A DNA stretch of 64,000 nt from Saccharomycodes ludwigii (Eukaryota; Ascomycota; Saccharomycetes; Saccharomycodales; Saccharomycodaceae): contig NC_060202.1 of the NCBI RefSeq assembly GCF_020623625.1, forward strand, positions 310,001 to 374,000, read 5' to 3'. The notes under the pieces were generated by a model. The model was not told the origin of the DNA and did no database searches. It saw only the letters and a program-made list of their open reading frames with translations. How positions within the stretch are numbered: position 1 is the first letter of the stretch; each line of letters begins with the position of its first letter. Of the stretch, positions 6,181-58,344 are shown piece by piece. Position numbers and translations under genes: made by a program.

Positions 6181-7035
6181 TCATGGCATGAAACTGTCCA
6201 AGAACTTCCTAAAACCGTGATGATGTTTTTGTTCTTGATACTTTTCAATTTCTTTTTTATTTCTTTCAACAACTTTTTCTATTTGTTCTTCGTTTATACC
6301 CTTAGGTATATGGCTTTCCTGCTTGATAGAAATTTGATCTTCATCGCCCAAATCATTATCATACATTAAACCGTCAATATCAGTGTTAATAGAGGATTGA
6401 GGGGTAGTAGAAGTGGTGACTCTATTTAACCCTTCGATAGTCTTCATCTTAACTAGTCCAGTTTTTGTCTCTAATTGATATTCTTCTGGAAATATTTCAT
6501 TGTTGCTTCCGTGTGACAAAGTTTCTTGCAATGGATCCAATTCCGCTTTGTTTAAATTTAACCCACTTTTAGCTAAACTTTCCTTTGTTTCCACATTACC
6601 CTTAATGGCATTATGTGAAATGATTTTATCCAATTTATTAGAGTCTAATTCTTTATTTTGCAACTTTTCCTCATCATCGCCACCATCATAAGCCTCCGGT
6701 TGTTCACTTAATTCTTCGTCTAAATCGGACAACGAGCTTATACTTGAATCAATACTCGAAGCGTCATCATCATCATCATCATTATTATTTTCCTCCTCCT
6801 TTTGTGGTTGAGAATCTGTATGTCCAGTAGTTGTAAGCTTCTTTTTCCCCTTATTTTTCCTGTCAGTATTGGTTTTAGCAGCAGGAGTCAAAGTAACGGA
6901 AGGAATATTTTTTGTTGTAGGGGTAGCGACAGAAGCATCAACAGGAGTAATGTCACCATTACCTTCAATTTCTGTGTTTCTGGCAGTGTTATTTGCAGTG
7001 TTTCTAGCAGTAGCAGCGTCGATAGATTCGCTCAT
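6181..7035 (-). CDS. Uncharacterised acidic protein (YGR126W position)
   Basis: This is a 284-residue protein that I do not recognise from sequence. It lies exactly where S. cerevisiae has YGR126W, between the YGR127W and YGR125W homologues and in the same orientation, so it is probably the positional equivalent. The first 100 residues are Asn/Thr/Ala-rich and probably disordered. A Ser/Asp block near 88-115 (SSIDSSISSLSDLDEE) is a good casein-kinase-2-like acidic target. The more conserved-looking part is 160-284: DPLQETLSHGSNNEIFPEEY, a TGLVKMKTIEGLNRVTT segment, and a basic helical C-terminus ending GFRKFLDSFMP. There is no signal peptide or membrane segment. It is a real gene by length, codon use and synteny; its function is unknown. 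Confidence 0.75.
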   Translation of the reverse strand: MSESIDAATARNTANNTARNTEIEGNGDITPVDASVATPTTKNIPSVTLTPAAKTNTDRKNKGKKKLTTTGHTDSQPQKEEENNNDDDDDDASSIDSSISSLSDLDEELSEQPEAYDGGDDEEKLQNKELDSNKLDKIISHNAIKGNVETKESLAKSGLNLNKAELDPLQETLSHGSNNEIFPEEYQLETKTGLVKMKTIEGLNRVTTSTTPQSSINTDIDGLMYDNDLGDEDQISIKQESHIPKGINEEQIEKVVERNKKEIEKYQEQKHHHGFRKFLDSFMP

Positions 7036-7659: not shown

Positions 7660-10600
7660 TCAGCTACTAATCAATGAATACCTTAACAACTTCTTATATC
7701 TGTATTGATTTAATGCACTAATAACTAAGACCAATTCAGTGAATAATTCTATATCCTCTTTCTTCAACTTATTCAATCGTTCCTTATCAACAATCCATAT
7801 AACACACTCAGTTTCACAACGAACACACTCTAAATAATCCTTCATTTCCTCAGTGTTATTATACCCATTTATAATTTTCCCATAGCATGTTTTGCTGGCT
7901 ATGGTTTCATAAATATTACAACGATCATTACTCTTTGGGTCATTCATATTGCCATTGCCCATTATGTAATAACTAATTTTCATTAATCCGCTTTCCACCA
8001 CAAATAATATGTTGTCATGATTGGGCATCTCATAATTTGGTGGCAACTTCTCACGTGTGAAATAATTAGTGACTTTTTCCCATTTTTGATGTTCCTCCTC
8101 AGTTTCAGGGTTAATGGATATGAATTTTTTCAAACTTACTAAAAACAATGGTAGAAATGGTTTTGATTTGAATCTATTGTTCAATTTAGTGTTTTCCTGT
8201 TGTTCGTTGTTAAATAGTACTTTAGCCACATTAACAAATTGGCTGTTACGTGGTGTAGACGATATCATCATTGTTGATTGAGAGGGAACAGACAATTTGC
8301 GCGTTTGATTCTTTGTTTGTTGTTGTTGTTGTTGTTGAAATAATAACAAGTTTTTCTGTTGTTGTTGCTTCATTCTATGCTTCTTCCTTTTTTCTAACAA
8401 GACTTTATATTGCATCAAAAACTGATTTTCACACCACTCCAATGCACTATTCAAATCATGGAACAATTCAATGCCCTGCAATAAACCAACCTTGTTAAAA
8501 ACATTATAAATATGGTCCGTTTCTTGAATAGAGGAGACAATTAAACGAATATTTTTCGTATCAACAAATCTTCTAATTCTGTTGAACCCTTCAGCAGCAC
8601 TATAATCTATATTGTCTGCGTTGATATTCTTAAAATCTAAAATCAAATATTTAATTTTTCTTTGAGTCTTTAGCATGTTATCAATTTTCTCTTCAATCGA
8701 GATAATGGTTCCGAAAAACAACAAATTTTGTAATTTCAAAACATAGATTTGTTCACCAATTTCATTTAACAATTCTGTTTGCAAATAATCTCTATTAACT
8801 GTTGAATGAGCAATTTTGCCGTCATATTCGCCATTGACTGTTTTCAACTTGGTGGAATCAATTAGAAACGAAAAACAAGCTATTAATATACCAACAATAA
8901 TTCCCAGAACAAAATCAAAGACACCCATAGTAAGTACAATGATTAATATGGTCAGGTATTCGAAATTTTTTAATTTCCCCCATGTGTCAAATAATGATTC
9001 CTTTAATAGTTCGTACCCTAACAAAAAGATTAACGAGCCTACGATGCAAATGGGGATCAAAGAAATGATTACTGGACCAATGCACATAACGATAAATGTA
9101 GCGATGGCTAGGTAAAACCCGGCAAACCCTGAATCCCCAGCCCCTGCTCTAATAAACAAAACACTATTAGTATAAACCAAATAATTTTCAATAGAGCCTA
9201 AAATACCACTGATGAAGTTGGAATAGCCATGTGCAATCAATTCCTTGTCAACATCATATTTATCAATATTCAGAGACATTGCCAACGCTGGCACGTTGAT
9301 CGGGACGTGTAATATTCCAAAAAAAGTTAATGCTAACATGGTGGGAATATTTGAGAATATCAAATCCCAGTGAACCAATTTGAAATTGTATAGTTTGTAA
9401 AAATCAAACCAATTTTCCCTTTTCCCTGCAAGTGGGAAAATCCAGCCCTCGTCTCTTAGATTTGAGAGCGATAAGCTGGGAACCAAAACAACAATGAAAT
9501 GAAACAAAAACAATGTAATAATATAGAACAGTGGCAACACCAAGCTTGAATTATTAAACCGATGTTGGATAAAAATTAATAAAACGGTTAGAATAATGGG
9601 CAATAATAATTTTGACAAATTGCTGAAATCCAAAATCAAAAAATGGACCAAGAAATCCCAAGAATATTTAAATTTGGCAATCCTGGTGCTTACTTCTATT
9701 CCAGTTATGATAAGAAAATACCCAACACCACCAATGCACCCGATCAAAATGTGGCGTGGGAAAAATCCGACAATCTTACCTAATCTTAACTTACCCAAGG
9801 TATAAAAAGTCATACCAGTGAAAATGGAACTAATTGCATAACATACAATTGTGGTAGAAATAATTTCGTTTTGGTGCTCCATTTCGTTACCTGTAGCAAA
9901 ACTGGACATGATATTGATAGCCATGGTATGGAAAAATGGGGTGATTTCAATCATTTCACTACCAATACCAGATCTGAAAACACTTAATCCTGACGAATAC
10001 GTCAATTGAGAAATAATACAAGAAACATAAAATATAGACAATCCAGCTGGACCCAAATGACTGAAAACAGGTTCTGTGATAGGGAAAATGATCATACCAT
10101 AAGATAATGCATCCAAAATATTCAATAGTAATCCCAGAATGACAGCTGGCGTATAACGAACAATATCTTGGAAGAAGACTCCAGGATTTCTTAAGTATGC
10201 TTTGTTGTTGGTGGTGGTGGTGGTGGTGGCAACAACGGTATCATTATGGGAATCCATCGAACCATAATTGTTAGCAGAAGACAACATAGATAAGTTGGAT
10301 GAGGACTGTGGTGATAAAAACGATGAAGAATCATATATACTACCCTCTTGGGAAATGGAAGGGACTAAGCCGTATTCTTCATCAAGTGCGTTATCATAGT
10401 CTGTTTGATAGGAAGGATAATCATTTTCTAGTATAGCTTCCGCTTCATCTTCCGCTTCTATTTGTTCGATATTATTAGAATCGTCAATTTCATAACCTTT
10501 ATTTTTTTGTTCTTCCTCTTCTTCAAATGCATTGGATAACGCCACGGTCTGTTTGTGTAGCATGTTAGAGGCGTGGATTTTTTTATTCTCTAGATTATTG

Positions 10601-10800
10601 GTTATAGGCAAGCTAAAATTGCTATTAATATTCTTGGGGCTATTTTTGTTATAAATCATAGGAAAATCTAAACCATTATTACTGCCGTTGTTTTTAGTGT
10701 AACCGAGACTGCTAGGATCACTGTTATTAGCTGTATTTAAATATGAGGGTTGGGAAAAACTACCGACATATGACCTACCTAAAAATGAAGATATTTCTGG

Positions 10801-10857
<57 letters not shown>

Positions 10858-10941
10858 ACCATTGTTATTTATAAATATAGTATTCCTGTGAGAATTAGAC
10901 CCATGGCTATTGCGATTGTTATATCCGCTAGTGCTACTCAT
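7660..10941 (-). CDS. VSB1: VSB1, vacuolar SulP-family transporter (YGR125W)
   Basis: A 1093-residue protein, against 1036 in S. cerevisiae YGR125W/Vsb1, which is needed for vacuolar storage of basic amino acids such as arginine. Order of parts: a disordered N-terminus with a poly-Asn run (about 28-46) and acidic blocks to residue 245; a SulP-type membrane core from about 255 (QDIVRYTPAVILGLLLNILDALSYG) to about 700 with 10-12 hydrophobic segments; a STAS domain at about 725-860 (LILDFKNINADNIDYSAAEG); a Gln/Lys-rich linker with poly-Gln near 880-900; and a cyclic-nucleotide-binding-like fold near 965-1080 (NILFVVESGLMKISYY). The STAS plus cNMP-like tail distinguishes it from the plasma-membrane sulfate permeases. 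It is the same neighbour of ASN as in S. cerevisiae (YGR125W-YGR124W), though here two extra genes lie between them. Confidence 0.9.
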
Positions 10942-12423: not shown

Positions 12424-12431
12424 TCCACGGA
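12424..12431. promoter_or_regulatory. PDRE-like site TCCACGGA
   Basis: TCCACGGA is the reverse complement of TCCGTGGA, a known variant of the Pdr1/Pdr3 element. It is 864 bp upstream of orphan 1. It belongs to a group with 14238, 14360 and 15344. Confidence 0.35.
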
Positions 12432-13245
12432 AATAAAAGTTTTAATATACGTATATATAAATATATACTTCTTTTTTTTTTGTGTCTGGTGTATATTAAA
12501 GTTTCTTATAGAAATTAAACCACGGACAATAAAAGCATACGGCTTAAACTTTTTTTTTTTTTTTCTCGTAATGATTTACGCTTATAGATCTAGTGAGAAA
12601 ATAGTCTTTGGTAACAAATAAACAATCGTTAATAATAATATATATAATAAACGATAACAGTAAACTTTATATCCGAACAATAAAAAGAAAAAAAGAAAGA
12701 GAAAAAATTCTGACTAAAGTATTGATTATATCCATTATATTATTACCGTTATTAAACATTTAAATAAATTGTTTTTCGAGAAAAAGAAGAAAAAAGAAAA
12801 ATTAATTAATATATATATATTAATAAAATAAACGAACACACTTATAATTGGCTATTATTTCTTTTATTATTATATCTTTAAAAATCAATCAAACTTTAGG
12901 CTCAGAATCATTTTTACTGAAAACTTTATATAGTTCTATTTTTTTTTTTTTTTTTATTTTTTTATACGGAGCTCCGTATTAACTTAAATATGTATAAACA
13001 CAAAAATAATAATATATCCTAACAATATACGAAACATAGGAACGAAGTCTCGTCGCATTATATTTAAGAAATTTCGGTTAATGTCTTAATCATATTAACA
13101 ATATCATTATAATAATAAATCATTTTGGCTATTTTAAAGTATAATAAATTTAATTAAGTGGATTAAAAAAACATTTTATATAAATATCAAAAGAGCCATA
13201 TAAAGTAAAAAGGAAAAAGAGGAAAAAAAAAAAAAAAAAAAAAAA

Positions 13246-13281
<36 letters not shown>

Positions 13282-13294
13282 AAAATAAAAAACA

Positions 13295-14104
13295 ATGACT
13301 TTTTTTAAAAAAATATTTGGCAGAAATAATTTTATAATTGTGATACTAGATAAAATAAAACAAATATTAGAGGGGACTCATCCTCAAGGTACTGACAATA
13401 CTAATACTTGTACTGTAGGTGATGATATTACTACTGCTACTACCGCCGCCAGCACCAACACCACTACTAATGATAGTAGAAAAAAAATGCTACCCCATTC
13501 ATGGTCATCACCATCATCTTCACTGCTACAAAAGAAACTAACTAATAATAATAAGAATTATCAGTTTGACAGTGATGTGGAATTGCTTAGGTTAGAAAAA
13601 GAATTAAAGAAAAAGAAAATTATAACTAAACAAGATTTGGTTGAATACAATATTAAATTAACGGAGATTTATAGAAACAAAAACAAAAGCACAAGTTCGC
13701 GTAGTGTTACAACTACTACAAATACAACTGCTGTGAGTAGAAAATCATCAATAATAACAGGTATTAGTAACACTAGTGGTATAAGCAATAGAAGTTATAG
13801 TACTGGTGGTTCTACTATGAGTAAAAAAAGTATTAATAATTATCATAACAAAAACTATAAAATAGTAACGCAACCAATGAGGGGGGAATTAAAAGATACA
13901 ATCAGGGAAGAGGAAGAACGACAACAAGAGGGTAATAATAGTATTAACACAGTTCTGACACCTACAATATCACAAGATGTAATGGATAATGGTAAGAGCA
14001 GAACTAATGCTACTGTCGCACCCACTGGCTTCGCTACAGATAATTTGTTTGTTAAAGTTTCTAATATAGGAAATATAGATAAAGCATTTATTATACCGGT
14101 ATAA
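13295..14104 (+). CDS. Orphan small gene 1, shares KKIITK-DL-YNIK motif with its neighbour
   Basis: A 269-residue protein I cannot assign. The N-terminus MTFFKKIFGRNNFIIVILDKI is amphipathic to hydrophobic and could associate with a membrane. The rest is mostly Ser/Thr/Asn-rich and likely disordered. Its one ordered-looking part is residues 91-128: DSDVELLRLEKELKK followed by KKIITKQDLVEYNIKLT at 107-123. The next gene downstream has the same motif with 13 of 17 residues identical (KKIITKNDLIQYNIKKT), also preceded by D-V-E-L. The C-terminus ends in a hydrophobic AFIIPV. Together they look like a diverged tandem pair that is not at this place in S. cerevisiae (between the YGR125W and YGR124W homologues). 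Upstream is a TA repeat and A-tract directly before the ATG. Function is unknown. Confidence 0.65.
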   Translation: MTFFKKIFGRNNFIIVILDKIKQILEGTHPQGTDNTNTCTVGDDITTATTAASTNTTTNDSRKKMLPHSWSSPSSSLLQKKLTNNNKNYQFDSDVELLRLEKELKKKKIITKQDLVEYNIKLTEIYRNKNKSTSSRSVTTTTNTTAVSRKSSIITGISNTSGISNRSYSTGGSTMSKKSINNYHNKNYKIVTQPMRGELKDTIREEEERQQEGNNSINTVLTPTISQDVMDNGKSRTNATVAPTGFATDNLFVKVSNIGNIDKAFIIPV

Positions 14105-14187
14105 ATAAACAACTAACTACTAAATATAACAAATACACTTTTATTAATATTTTTATCGAATCTTAAATGCATAGTTTTTTAGCAAAC

Positions 14188-14224
<37 letters not shown>

Positions 14225-14237
14225 AGGTATCCATATT

Positions 14238-14245
14238 TCCGTGGA
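14238..14245. promoter_or_regulatory. PDRE-like site TCCGTGGA
   Basis: An exact match to a PDRE variant known from drug-resistance promoters of S. cerevisiae. It sits inside a short inverted repeat (TATCCA...TGGATA), 437 bp upstream of orphan 2. Confidence 0.4.
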
Positions 14246-14292
14246 TATATTATAATAGGGATGGTGCGGGGCCGGGCGGAGTAGCCTTTTTA

Positions 14293-14336
<44 letters not shown>

Positions 14337-14359
14337 CTCGATTGTAATAAAGTTACAAG

Positions 14360-14367
14360 TCCGCGGA
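14360..14367. promoter_or_regulatory. PDRE consensus site TCCGCGGA
   Basis: The perfect palindromic consensus of the Pdr1/Pdr3 pleiotropic drug response element, 315 bp upstream of orphan 2. Such a GC-rich 8-mer is rare in this AT-rich sequence. Regulator identity is inferred. Confidence 0.5.
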
Positions 14368-14681
14368 TGCCATTATTATTATTATTATTATTATTATTAT
14401 AATAAAAAAGAATTAATATGGATCCCCTCTTCCATCCCAATAATTATAACTAAAGTTATGTAATCTGACTAATAACCGAAATAATGAGTGTTGTATGAAT
14501 TTTTTCTTTATAAAAAAAAAAAAAGTATTATTAATACAACATATATATATATATATATATATAACAACTAGTTATTATTACAAACTTTCAAAAAGAAAAA
14601 TAATCTAATCTTATTTTCTTTCTTTGTTTTTTTCTTAATCCATTAGAGAAAAAAAAGTGTAGAACTAATGTAAAAATACAG

Positions 14682-14725
14682 ATGTTTGCTAACAATATAA
14701 CTACAACTTCTCTATTTAATAGACC

Positions 14726-14756
<31 letters not shown>

Positions 14757-15179
14757 AATAACAACAACAACAATAATAATAATAATACTTACTCTTTAAT
14801 GGACAAGATTAAATCCAGAATTATAATACCATATGTTTCTAGTGATAAAATTAAAAATGGTTACAAGAATGGAGGTTTCTTATTTCTAAAAACAAAACGT
14901 TTAATTGCTAATACCAAAAAGAAAAATCCTAATAGTGCCAATAATGATAAAGAAATTAATATATTTGATGTAGATGTGGAATTAAAACAAAAAAAAATAA
15001 TAACAAAAAATGACTTAATTCAATATAACATTAAAAAAACAGGTCTTATAAAAAAAAATGATACCGTCCATATTAGCAACGGAACAGCTAAAAATAACGT
15101 TAATGGTGATGCAAATGAACATTTTAATGCTCATAATACTGATAGAAATGTATGGCTATATGATAAATATGTTTTTTAA
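14682..15179 (+). CDS. Orphan small gene 2, paralogue-like partner of orphan 1
   Basis: A 165-residue protein that I do not recognise. Residues 16-35 are almost pure Asn, encoded by AAT/AAC repeats at about 14727-14784. A short basic segment follows (SLMDKIKSRIIIP at 38-50, then TKRLIANTKKK). The key part is IFDVDVELKQKKIITKNDLIQYNIKKT at about 94-120, whose last 17 residues match orphan 1 at 13 positions. The C-terminus is polar and ends in WLYDKYVF. There is no signal peptide or clear membrane segment. The start at 14682 is the first ATG of the frame; translation could also start at the Met at residue 40. The same strand, adjacency and shared motif suggest an old tandem duplication followed by fast divergence outside the motif. 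Confidence 0.6.
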
Positions 15180-15654
15180 TTAAAATAAGTATTTGCATTG
15201 TTTTGTTTTAGTAGGGTTCAATTGCAGTTTTTAATTCATCGATAGAAAAAAAAAAAAAAAAAGAATATTATCATATTACTTCCCGTTGTCGCCGAAATAA
15301 CGAACAGGCTATAACCGGTTCAAGATATCCAACCGTTTTACGCTCCACGGACGTATTAAGCCACTTCCTTTAAATCCATAATTATTTTTACCCGTGCTTT
15401 TAATTTTTTTTTTCTTTTTTTATAATTGTCTCTTTTTATTCAAAAAATTATTTAAAAAATTTATAAACGCAAGTAAGGAAGAAGCAAAAAAAAAAAAAAA
15501 AAAATAAATAAATAAATAAAAAAAAAACTCATACCATTTATTTATCAACTATAAACAAAACAAAAAAAGAAAAAAAAAAAAAAAAAAAGAAAAAAGGTAC
15601 ATATATACATACATATAGTTATTTCTCCACTTATATACTCAACAATAAATCAAA
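15180..15654. other. Convergent spacer between orphan 2 and ASN
   Basis: 475 bp with A17-A18 tracts (15246, 15486, 15570), a (AAAT)n patch near 15503, a PDRE-like TCCACGGA at 15344-15351, and a Reb1-like TTACCCG at 15388-15394. Regulatory motifs in a 3'-3' spacer are unusual. No gene is seen. Confidence 0.55.
15344..15351. promoter_or_regulatory. PDRE-like site TCCACGGA
   Basis: The fourth member of the 8-bp group around the orphan pair, 165 bp beyond the stop of orphan 2. It is followed by a Reb1-like TTACCCG at 15388. Confidence 0.3.
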
Positions 15655-17364
15655 TTAATTGTCAATATGTTTAGCATGAATCTTAGCATATCTACCAGAT
15701 GGATCAGCATGACAACCCCAGTCAGCCTTTGGAATCCATCTCATAACTGTAGCAGCAGCAGCCTTTTGTGGGTAAATAGCATCAAATTTCAATCTGTACC
15801 AGTAAGCTTCTTTAGTTGTTGGAATGTCATTGCCCCATTCAGGTTTTGGATTAGCTAATTGCTCGTCAGAAATAGCCTTTTCAGCATAATCCTTCAAAGC
15901 ATCAATCCAAGAATAACCAACACCATCACTAAATTGTTCCTTCTGTCTCCATAAGATTTCTTCCGGTAAATATGGTTTAACATCAGGTTCATCTGTGGTG
16001 TCAAATGCCTTTCTCAAAATGTATTTCTCAATTCTATCCTTGGTAATCATTTTTTCCTTTGGATCAATGTTCATACAAACTTGTAAAAATTCCTTATCCA
16101 AAAATGGAACACGTGCTTCCAAACCCCAAGCCAAGGTGGATTTATTGGCTCTTAAACAATCACTCAAGTGCAAGTTTTTAACTCTCTTGACACTTTCAGT
16201 GTGAAATTCAGCAGCATTTGGAGCTTGAGCAAAATATAGATAGCCCCCAAATATTTCATCACTACCTTCACCACTTAAAACCATCTTGACACCTTGAGCC
16301 TTAATCTTTCTACTCAACAAAAACATTGGAGTAGAGGCTCTGATGGTAGTCACATCATAAGTTTCTAAATGATAAATAACATCGTCTAAAGCATCTAAAC
16401 CTTCCTGTACAGAAAATGTATGTTCGTGGTGAATGGAATTAATAAACTTAGCAACTTTACGAGCAGCTTTCAAATCTGGAGCATTTGGCAAACCAATAGC
16501 AAAAGAATGCAACTTGGCAAAACCAGAAGTGTGTAAGTGACCTTGATCATCCACACCTGCTAATCTCTTACCACCAACAATTTCATCATCTGGATTGGTG
16601 TCAGCATTGGCAGTTTCTCTGGCAGCAATAGAAGCAATTAAAGAGCTATCTAAACCACCACTTAATAAAACACCATATGGAACTTCTGCCATTAATCTCT
16701 TACGAACAGCCTTTTCCAATGTTGTCCTAATCAACTTGTAGTCAACTGGGTTATGTGGAATTCTATTTTCATCTATCCAATCTGGAGAAAAGTAACGAGT
16801 GGTCTTATCGGTAGCTGAATCATAAACATGGCCCGGAGGAAATGATATAATATTGTCACAATCATCAACTAAACATTTCAATTCACTAGCGAAATAAACA
16901 GTCTTAGGACTAGCACTAGATCTACCCATGTATAGTGTGTTGACACCAATAGGATCTCTAGCAGCAACAATACGATCTTTAACACTATCATAAAGAACCC
17001 AAGCAAACATACCATCCAAGTATTTTGGTGCATCGATATCATATTTTTCGTACAATGGAATAATAGGTTCACAGTCAGAAGCTGTCTTGAATGGGTAATC
17101 AGCAAACTTTTCCCTCAATTGAATATGATTGTAGATTTCACCGTTGACAGTTAAAGATAAAGTTTCATCTTTGTTAGTAATTGGTTGAGCACCGGTATCT
17201 AAACCAACAATAGCCAATCTTTCATGGACCAAAATAGTATTTTTTTTAACAAAGTTACCACTCCAATCTGGACCTCTGTGTCTAATTCTTTTGGCTAATT
17301 GCAAAGCCCTTGGTTTATATTCTTCAACATGTTGTTTGTTGTAACAAGCAAAAATACCACACAT
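15655..17364 (-). CDS. ASN1: Asparagine synthetase (glutamine-hydrolysing)
   Basis: A 569-residue protein; S. cerevisiae Asn1/Asn2 are 572. It makes asparagine from aspartate, glutamine and ATP in the cytosol. The start MCGIFACYN exposes the catalytic Cys2 of the class-II glutaminase domain (about 1-200), with the RHRGPDWSG and VNGEIYNH motifs. The synthetase domain follows with the PP-loop [11 protein letters not shown] at about 236-246 and the [15 protein letters not shown] segment near 367. S. cerevisiae has two copies, ASN1 (YPR145W) and ASN2 (YGR124W), one from each duplicated block; only one is seen here, next to both VSB1 and NOC4 homologues, so it represents the pre-duplication gene. 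A Gcn4-type TGAGTCA lies 241 bp upstream. Coding bias is strong, as for a highly expressed gene. Confidence 0.97.
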
Positions 17365-50026: not shown

Positions 50027-51727
50027 CTAACAACTAACCAAGTCAACAACTTCCAAGTAAACTGGCTTACATTGGTCACCAATGTTTTCATCGTACAAGT
50101 TGTAAAAGTCACCAGACAAACATTGGTAGAAAACATCTTCAGTACCAATAGCCAAATTACCTTCTGGAGTAATAGACCAACCATCAGCGTAAATGGCACC
50201 AGCTTGTGGTGGTGGGCCATCAAATTGGAATTGTCTGTTAGCAACGATAGAACCAATTCTACCCTTACCATCTCTCAAGACACTGTCCTTCAAAGTCATA
50301 GACAAAGTACCGTTGTTGAAACAGGATTCAGCAGTAACTGGGTCAGATGAAACAGCTTCATCGTTGGTAGAAGAAGCAGTGGAAGAAGCAGTGGAACTAG
50401 TAGAAGAGGTGACAGAAGCTGAACCAGAAGCAGTGGAAGCAGCAGCAGAGCTAGATGGGGCTAAAGTAGTGGTAGATCTAGTAGAGGCTTGGACTTGACC
50501 GTCAGTAATTTGAGAGGCAGCAGCGGCTGTAGATTTAGCAGTGGTGGTAGCAGCTTGAACTTGACCATCTGTGATTTGAGAAGCAGCGGCGGCAGTAGAT
50601 TTAGCGGTAGTAGTGGTAGCTTGAACTTGACCATCGCTAATTTGAGAAACAGCAGCAGCAGTAGATTTAGCTGTAGTGGTAGCAGCTTGAACTTGACCAT
50701 CAGTGATTTGGGAAACAGCAGCGGCTGTAGACTTAGCAGCAGTGGTGGTGGTAGTAGCGGCTTGAACTTGACCATCAGTGATTTGGGAAACAGCAGCGGC
50801 TGTAGACTTAGCAGCAGTGGTGGTGGTAGTAGCGGCTTGAACTTGACCATCAGTGATTTGAGAAACAGCAGCGGCAGTAGACTTAGCAGCTGATGTGGTG
50901 GTGGTGGTGGCTTGGACTTGACCATCACCAATTTGAGAAACAACAGCCAAAGTAGCTTGCAAGGTAGCTTTACCTGTAGAAGCTTGAACTTGGCCATCAG
51001 TTATTTGAGAGACAACAGCAATACTGGTCTTTTCAATAGAGGTGGTGGTGGTGGTAGCAGCTTGAACTTGACCATCGGTTATTTGGGAAACAGCAGCGGC
51101 TGTAGACTTAGCTGTAGTGGTGGTGGTGGTAGCAGCTTGAACTTGACCATCAGTTATTTGAGAAACGGCGGCAGCAGTAGATTTAGCTGTGGTGGTGGTG
51201 GTGGTAGCAGCTTGAACTTGACCATCAGTTATTTGAGAGACAGCAGCGGCTGTAGATTTAGCAGCTGTAGATTTAGCTGTGGTGGTGGTGGTGGTAGCAG
51301 CTTGAACTTGACCATCAGTTATTTGGGAAACAGCAGCGGCTGTAGACTTAGCTGTAGTGGTGGTAGTAGCAGCTTGAACTTGACCATCAGTTATTTGAGA
51401 GACAGCAGCGGCTGTAGATTTAGCAGCTGAAGTTGTAGCAGTAGTAGCTTGGATTTGGCCGTCGCCTATTTGAGAAACAGCTTGAACATCCCTCTTAGCC
51501 TTAGTAGAAGAAGTGGGCTTAGCTGAACTAGAACTAGCATAATAAGAGGCATAGGAACCTGTGGTAATTGGAACAACAGCAACCCCAAAAGTGGAGGCAT
51601 AATCAGTAACACCACCGGTGTAGGTAGCATTTGGAGTTAAAGTGGACCAGTTGTCCTTGCTTGGAACATAAGCAGCCATAGAGCTGGCAGCTAAAGTAGC
51701 AATAATAGCAGAAACTTTGTATTGCAT
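50027..51727 (-). CDS. PIR cell-wall protein A, 14 repeats
   Basis: A 566-residue protein with internal repeats (PIR1/PIR3/HSP150/CIS3 family), linked to beta-1,3-glucan by an alkali-sensitive ester through a Gln of the repeat. Order: signal peptide 1-18, propeptide ending in a Kex2 site KAKR near 79, then 14 PIR repeats, mostly [10 protein letters not shown] (the usual form is [10 protein letters not shown]) separated by Thr/Ala/Lys spacers ([12 protein letters not shown]). A Ser/Ala/Thr stretch follows, and then the C-terminal four-Cys domain, spaced C-66-C-16-C-12-C, ending DLVSC. It is divergent from PIR B across 5.4 kb. A CTAAAAATAG (Rlm1) site is 643 bp upstream. The GC content and codon bias are higher than in most neighbours, as in highly expressed genes. 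Confidence 0.95.
50500..51480 (-). repeat. PIR A tandem repeats, 14 units of about 66-90 bp
   Basis: Units of about 22-30 codons with near-identical DNA for the [10 protein letters not shown] part and Ala-Ala-Val. Units 9 and 10 are almost identical, as are units 4 and 5. One unit (the third) has an internal AAKSTAA duplication. Confidence 0.9.
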
Positions 51728-57162: not shown

Positions 57163-58344
57163 ATGCAATTCAAGAAAAACGCTATTACTGCCTCATTAGT
57201 CGCTACTTCCATGGCTGCCTATGTTCCAAGTGGAGACAATTGGACTACCTTGACTCCAACTGCTACTTACAGTGGTGGTATCTCTAATTATGCTTCTACC
57301 TTTGGTATCGCTGTTATTCCAATTACCACTGGTTCTTTGGCTGCCACTTCTACCTCTGCCTCTGTTGCTACTTCTTCTACTAAGGCTAAGAGAGATGTTC
57401 AAGCTATTTCCCAAATCGGTGATGGTCAAATCCAAGCTACTACTACTACCACACCTGCTGCTAAATCTACTGCCGCTGCTGTTTCTCAAATCGGTGACGG
57501 TCAAATCCAAGCTACTACTACTACCACCCCTGCTGCTAAATCTACTGCCGCTGCTGTTTCTCAAATCGGTGACGGTCAAATCCAAGCTACTACTACTACC
57601 ACCCCTGCCGCTAAAGCTACTGCTGCCGCTGTTTCTCAAATCGGTGATGGTCAAATCCAAGCTACTACTACTACCACCCCTGCTGCTAAAGCTACTGCTG
57701 CCGCTGTTTCTCAAATCGGTGACGGTCAAATCCAAGCTACTACTACTACCACCCCTGCTGCTAAATCTACTGCCGCTGCTGTTTCCCAAATCGGTGATGG
57801 TCAAATCCAAGCTACCACTTTAACAACTAAAGCTAAATCTACTGCCGCCGCTGCTTCTCAAATAACTGACGGTCAAGTCCAAGCTACTACCAATACTAAT
57901 ACTGCTACAACTGAAACAACTGGTCCATCTAGTGCTTCATCCTTGACTACCTCTTTCACCTCATCTATTACCCCTACCGGTTCTACTACTACTTTAGCTC
58001 CAGCCACCACTACTGCTTCCAACTCTACTGACCCAGTTGAAGCCCAAGCTTGCAAAACCAACGGTACTTTGTCCATGACCTTGAACGATGGTATTTTAAA
58101 GGATTCTAAAGACAGAATCGGTTCTATTGTTGCTAACAGACAATTCCAATTCGACGGTCCACCACAAGCCGGTGCTATTTATGCTAAGGGTTGGTCTATT
58201 ACTCAAGAAGGTAATTTGGCTATTGGTACTGAAGATGTTTTCTACCAATGTTTGTCTGGTGACTTTTACAACTTGTACGATGAACGTATTGGTGGCCAAT
58301 GTAAGGCTGTCCATTTGGAAGTTATTGACTTGGTTTCTTGTTAG
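57163..58344 (+). CDS. PIR cell-wall protein B, 7 repeats
   Basis: A 393-residue PIR protein with the same plan as PIR A: signal peptide 1-18, a propeptide of similar sequence, a Kex2 site KAKR near 75, seven repeats, a Ser/Thr linker and a four-Cys domain. Six repeats use the classical [12 protein letters not shown]; only the last has [12 protein letters not shown], the form dominant in PIR A. The spacers also differ ([11 protein letters not shown]). Cys spacing is C-65-C-16-C-12-C, one residue shorter than in PIR A because GPPQAG replaces GPPPQAG. The C-terminal 100 residues are otherwise nearly identical. It is followed by JJJ2-like and MCD4, matching the S. cerevisiae neighbourhoods of HSP150/CIS3 (YJL) and PIR1/PIR3 (YKL). 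Confidence 0.95.
57400..57890 (+). repeat. PIR B tandem repeats, 7 units of about 75 bp
   Basis: 25-codon units, nearly identical at DNA level in units 2-5. Units 3 and 4 share a Ser-to-Ala change (AAKATAA), indicating recent unit duplication. Confidence 0.9.

Follow-up and report, generated by a model that had tools for sequence, protein, structure and literature searches.

The interval between a VSB1-type transporter gene (7660-10941, minus strand; Pfam sulfate permease plus STAS) and an asparagine synthetase gene (ASN; 15655-17364, minus strand) of Saccharomycodes ludwigii holds two small open reading frames on the plus strand. ORF1 (13295-14104) encodes 269 residues and is rich in Thr, Asn, Ser and Lys, and ORF2 (14682-15179) encodes 165 residues and is Asn-rich (25% N). 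ORF2 and the ASN gene are convergent, the latter having its 3' end at 15655. The two ORFs were read as coding from their length and codon score. ORFs reached at most 123 aa in 500 dinucleotide-preserving shuffles of the VSB1-ASN interval, and ORF1 and ORF2 both exceed this length. The codon score set the statistics of 19 other ORFs of the window (the whole 64-kb stretch of DNA that was analysed) against those of intergenic DNA. It was +0.39 bits per codon for ORF1 and +0.25 bits per codon for ORF2 in the proposed frames, and it was negative in the 5 other frames of each. A preliminary description of this DNA had placed two small same-strand genes between VSB1 and ASN; both ORFs are as it stated, and ORF1 and ORF2 are probably real genes.

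A 98-aa ORF that lies between them (14167-14463) had a negative codon score in 6/6 frames and was set aside as non-coding. A plus-strand scan of 12901-15700 for six 5' splice-site words found GTATGA at 14493 and GTATGG at 15150. Because neither of these lies within ORF1, there is no ORF1-ORF2 intron join of those types, and a single spliced gene made from both ORFs is ruled out for introns of the six word types. A short G+C-rich stretch (GATGGTGCGGGGCCGGGCGGAGTAGCC, 14260-14286) was observed upstream of ORF2, in DNA of otherwise 21% G+C.

Pfam assigned families to 9/10 of the flanking proteins: SYF2, Utp8, lipid-droplet hydrolase, TANGO2, sulfate permease plus STAS, asparagine synthase, CBF/Mak21, PPP5-type phosphatase and HEAT-repeat. 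We take the CBF/Mak21 flank to be NOC4 and the PPP5-type phosphatase flank to be PPT1. The tenth, a 284-aa ORF at 6181-7035 (minus strand), had no Pfam family at E <= 1e-5, and it sits where we would expect YGR126W. The yeast names and the order of the flanks presumably fit a pre-WGD arrangement, and we understand S. cerevisiae to hold these flanks on two post-duplication tracks, YGR123-129 and YPR144-147. Elsewhere in the window, 50027-51727 (minus strand) and 57163-58344 (plus strand) each encode a cell-wall-like protein that has many AVSQI(G/T)DGQ(I/V)QA repeats, presumably of the PIR type.

The block shared by ORF1 and ORF2

The preliminary description had reported a shared 17-residue motif at residues 107-123 of ORF1 and 104-120 of ORF2 with 13/17 residues identical, and these coordinates and this identity were exact. 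The conserved unit is ELKxKKIITKxDLxxYNIKxT, in which 16/21 residues are identical in register; it covers residues 103-123 of ORF1 (ELKKKKIITKQDLVEYNIKLT; 13601-13663, plus strand) and residues 100-120 of ORF2 (ELKQKKIITKNDLIQYNIKKT; 14979-15041, plus strand). The D-V-E-L described ahead of the motif is indeed present in both proteins, but it is out of register between them: at residues 94-97 of ORF1 its start precedes KKIITK by 13 residues, and at residues 98-101 of ORF2 by 6. Upstream of the motif the alignment pairs KELK of ORF1 with VELK of ORF2, and their common part is E-L-K.

BLASTP of ORF1 against ORF2 gave one significant piece in all, an ungapped 36-residue stretch around the block with 17/36 residues identical (E = 1e-8 for a single pair), and the remaining pieces had E >= 1.0. 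The Smith-Waterman score of the two proteins was 105, and the best score among 6,000 shuffles of ORF2 (3 x 2,000, within windows of 10, within windows of 20 and over the whole length) was 90. A search of the organism's own genome with a 38-aa motif query gave E = 1.2e-5. ORF2 scored 127 against VSB1, above its 105 against ORF1, and we put this down to Asn runs. With a similarity above that of shuffles and significant by BLASTP, the shared motif is real. Chance similarity of two Lys/Asn-rich frames is so improbable that it was rejected, for although both ORFs are AT-rich and biased in composition, 0/6,000 shuffles reached the score, those within 10-residue windows included, and the codons differ at residues that agree.

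Over the 21-codon block, pS was 0.84 and pN was 0.13. Within the motif, 8/13 shared residues are encoded by different codons. When the 16 base differences of the block were placed at random, 16/21 residues were kept in 1/20,000 trials. The differences at codon positions 1, 2 and 3 numbered 5, 1 and 10, respectively, giving a modest third-position excess (10/16, P = 0.016). Because the block was chosen for its similarity, all these contrasts are inflated towards constraint. The pattern fits amino-acid-level constraint, in line with the earlier suggestion that the motif is under selection. Since 8 of the 13 shared residues have differing codons, the pair would be an old duplicate maintained at the protein level; the silent differences in the block are near saturation, and so they also point to an old duplication. 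The plain reading of these comparisons is that the genes duplicated long ago, not recently, and that selection on the protein has maintained the block. Outside the block the pair appears, from its sequence, to have diverged almost beyond recognition. ORF1 and ORF2 thus have the features of tandem fast-evolving paralogues, being adjacent and on the same strand, with similarity above chance and with diverged silent sites.

Predicted structure and relatives

AlphaFold2, run for ORF2 with a two-row alignment, gave a model with a mean pLDDT of 47, in which 129/165 residues were below 50. In the model, residues 94-103 and 109-122 form helices joined by a short turn, and the mean pLDDT was 83 for residues 101-110 and 77 for residues 111-120. 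The motif as modelled is thus a hairpin. It had been described beforehand as a short helix; its helical nature agrees with the ORF2 model, but the model has a helix-turn-helix hairpin and not a single helix. The one usable modelled segment of ORF2 is this predicted two-helix hairpin over the block, and the prediction applies to ORF2 only. By charge-hydropathy, ORF1 was barely on the disordered side (0.423 vs a boundary of 0.431), and ORF2 was clearly on the disordered side (0.385 vs a boundary of 0.439). Residues 11-29 of ORF1 (13325-13381, plus strand) cover its two most amphipathic 18-residue windows, with a helical moment of 0.44, and could possibly form a membrane-facing helix.

The own genome (12.5 Mb in 8 contigs, with the window in contig C3) was searched for a third copy, and none was found with ORF1 or the 38-aa motif as query, the matches being the two genes alone. 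ORF2 as query gave five extra weak matches (E 0.22 to 3.7). Further paralogues, which had been proposed as support for a family, were therefore not forthcoming, as no third copy in the genome was convincing, and "family" here means the ORF1/ORF2 pair.

Searches of Pfam and NCBIfam with both proteins, and of PDB with ORF2 and the motif, gave no convincing relative, which agrees with the initial view that the motif belongs to no known family. The sub-threshold Pfam matches were a glue-protein family (E 0.0027; 17.9 bits, cut-off 31) and MUCL1 (E 5.8) for ORF1, Sec62 (E 0.58) and Gti1_Pac2 (E 2.7) for ORF2, and Ski_Sno_DHD (E 0.12) for the ORF2 block. NCBIfam returned one match (E 1.3). The PDB queries were ORF2, a 38-aa stretch of ORF1 and a two-row profile, with whole ORF1 left out, and the best match of ORF2 was ribosomal protein S11 (E 0.48). 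Profile scans returned 596 pattern matches in viral contigs and 594 in bacterial and archaeal contigs, and 0 were confirmed by tblastn; this absence is as expected for a yeast gene. A text search of the literature with six motif peptides gave no match.

Two known systems bear some likeness to the block. A gamma-glutamyltranspeptidase (PDB 2nqo, "IITKEDLASYNVK") is like the motif in the pattern I-I-T-K-x-D-L-x-x-Y-N-(I/V)-K. The match was weak (E = 0.027 with the two-row profile, E = 0.27 with the single sequence), and it differs in that ~23 residues of a 376-residue bacterial chain align and nothing else of the enzyme does. Neither the ORF1 nor the ORF2 protein had a Pfam match to the enzyme domain. 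We judge this likeness to be convergent use of a capped helix. Short helical hairpins of the SHOCT type consist of a helix, an Ile-Ile-Thr turn and a second helix, and this layout is as in the modelled block. With whole proteins or 44-aa blocks, Pfam listed no SHOCT match at E <= 10, under scan filters that remove most matches above E ~0.1.

Origin of the pair

We understand YPR145C-A of S. cerevisiae to adjoin ASN1 and to be convergent with it, on the YPR144-147 track, and we take it to be a small protein of 78 aa and of unknown function. Its place and strand relative to ASN would be as for ORF2, with the ASN1 side being our assumption, and the likeness is positional only; it differs in that YPR145C-A is a single, shorter gene and ORF1 and ORF2 are a pair. 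A published table gives YPR145C-A as a minus-strand gene at 824922 of chr16 (PMC3289889). Because of this entry, taken together with the position assumed above, the absence of an S. cerevisiae gene here, as claimed in the preliminary description, is doubtful.

Our preferred reading, to which we assign a probability of about one half, is that ORF1 and ORF2 are old tandem paralogues encoding small, largely disordered, fast-changing proteins around one conserved two-helix hairpin. Judging by position, the ancestral ASN-VSB1 interval would have contained a small gene to which the pair goes back, and S. cerevisiae YPR145C-A may be a remnant of that ancestral small gene.

Another reading has its mechanism in common with this one and differs in origin. 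YPR145C-A and its unrecognised orthologues could be one general Saccharomycetaceae gene that evolves beyond recognition and that was tandem-duplicated in Saccharomycodes, in which case the gene would not be lineage-specific. The minus-strand entry on chr16 and the assumed convergence with ASN1, which parallels that of ORF2 with ASN, argue for such a gene, as does the agreement of the flanking genes (by Pfam and our own assignments) with a pre-WGD order. The likeness to YPR145C-A is, however, one of place and strand, and we entertain this origin tentatively, as a real possibility.

Somewhat more doubtful is an origin of the pair as new genes specific to Saccharomycodes or Saccharomycodaceae, which would have arisen from non-coding DNA and then been duplicated; this is where the lineage-specific pair of the preliminary description would lead. 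The G+C content of ORF2 (22%) is the same as that of intergenic DNA, and the family and structure searches returned no convincing relative, both of which are consistent with new genes. However, the G+C content of ORF1 is 31%, and the near-saturation of silent differences in the block suggests that the duplication is old. Moreover, Pfam, NCBIfam and PDB contain few yeast orphans, and Sd. ludwigii was the sole yeast genome searched. In the available text of the paper on Sd. ludwigii UTAD17, 389 predicted genes are without a UniProt match (PMC7903802). Unrecognised genes are common in Sd. ludwigii, and the pair is probably a rather unexceptional instance of the familiar fast-evolving orphan gene.

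TCCGYGGA words and a possible role of the hairpin

The 64-kb window has four TCCGYGGA places, and all of them are in one 2.9-kb stretch (12424-15351). One word lies between VSB1 and ORF1 (TCCACGGA, 12424-12431, within TCCACGGAAATA), two lie upstream of ORF2 (TCCGTGGA, 14238-14245, in reverse complement within TCCACGGAAATA; and TCCGCGGA, 14360-14367), and one lies between the 3' ends of ORF2 and ASN (TCCACGGA, 15344-15351). There were 5 strand matches in the window against 0.53 expected, and 0/100 shuffles reached as many. The word was not enriched genome-wide, because its 101 strand matches compared with 143 for a reversed control. Among the places listed for 12.5 Mb, 92 were distinct, with one strand match outside the listing. 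The genome has 6 copies of the 12-mer TCCACGGAAATA, 2 of them in the VSB1-ASN interval. Among fetched loci, an ORF of 120 aa or more contained the word in 25/34 of one set, in which two places were counted twice and two loci came from the VSB1-ASN interval, and in 12/20 of another. A run of five TCCGTGGA words with exact 12-base spacing was seen on contig C7 (305592-305647); it is denser than the VSB1-ASN cluster and is perhaps a tandem repeat.

We take TCCGYGGA to resemble Pdr1-type elements. The interval could on that basis serve a zinc-cluster activator, presumably of the Pdr1/Yrr1 type, as a binding platform, with the two proteins as the activator's stress-induced targets, and we consider this improbable. 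Clusters of four words in 2.9 kb would be expected ~1.5e-4 times, and the repeated 12-mer would also speak for a platform; the motif was, however, picked after seeing the sequence and is below its reversed control in the genome, and with the wider TCCRYGGA (4 matches in the window, 1.24 expected) 4/100 window shuffles reached the observed 4. Ten genes beside words, from nine intergenic loci (six others, L020, L022, L036, L039, L045 and L047, were left out), included by Pfam 1 ABC transporter, which would suit a platform, but the others were mixed: 8 matched families with unrelated functions, one of which (BAR_3) was under its cut-off, and 1 was without a family. One word of the cluster, moreover, lies between two 3' ends. 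The nearest listed TCCGYGGA place was ~30 kb from any of five PDR_CDR domain matches, which mark PDR-type transporters, and by this distance membership in a Pdr1-type (PDRE) regulon was not found. Very doubtful, and less probable still, is a Saccharomycodes-specific two-gene module in which twin disordered proteins carry one hairpin outside all known families for a shared partner and are co-induced by a zinc-cluster factor through the TCCGYGGA cluster. The available text of the UTAD17 paper does not mention Pdr1, Pdr3, Yrr1 or Stb5 (PMC7903802).

If the two genes are old tandem paralogues, as we prefer, their proteins would be mostly disordered and would keep one helical docking hairpin, ELKxKKIITKxDLxxYNIKxT. 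That the hairpin serves as a docking module is plausible by analogy. Its T-x-x-D helix cap, together with the second helix's L/Y/I face, would be packed onto both the first helix and a partner protein, and the disordered arms may act as tethers. If this reading is right, the pair would be a clean example of yeast protein divergence with one 21-residue hairpin retained. As a short probe, the block could then also bring to light overlooked orthologues of YPR145C-A and of similar small genes, whose homology escapes ordinary searches.
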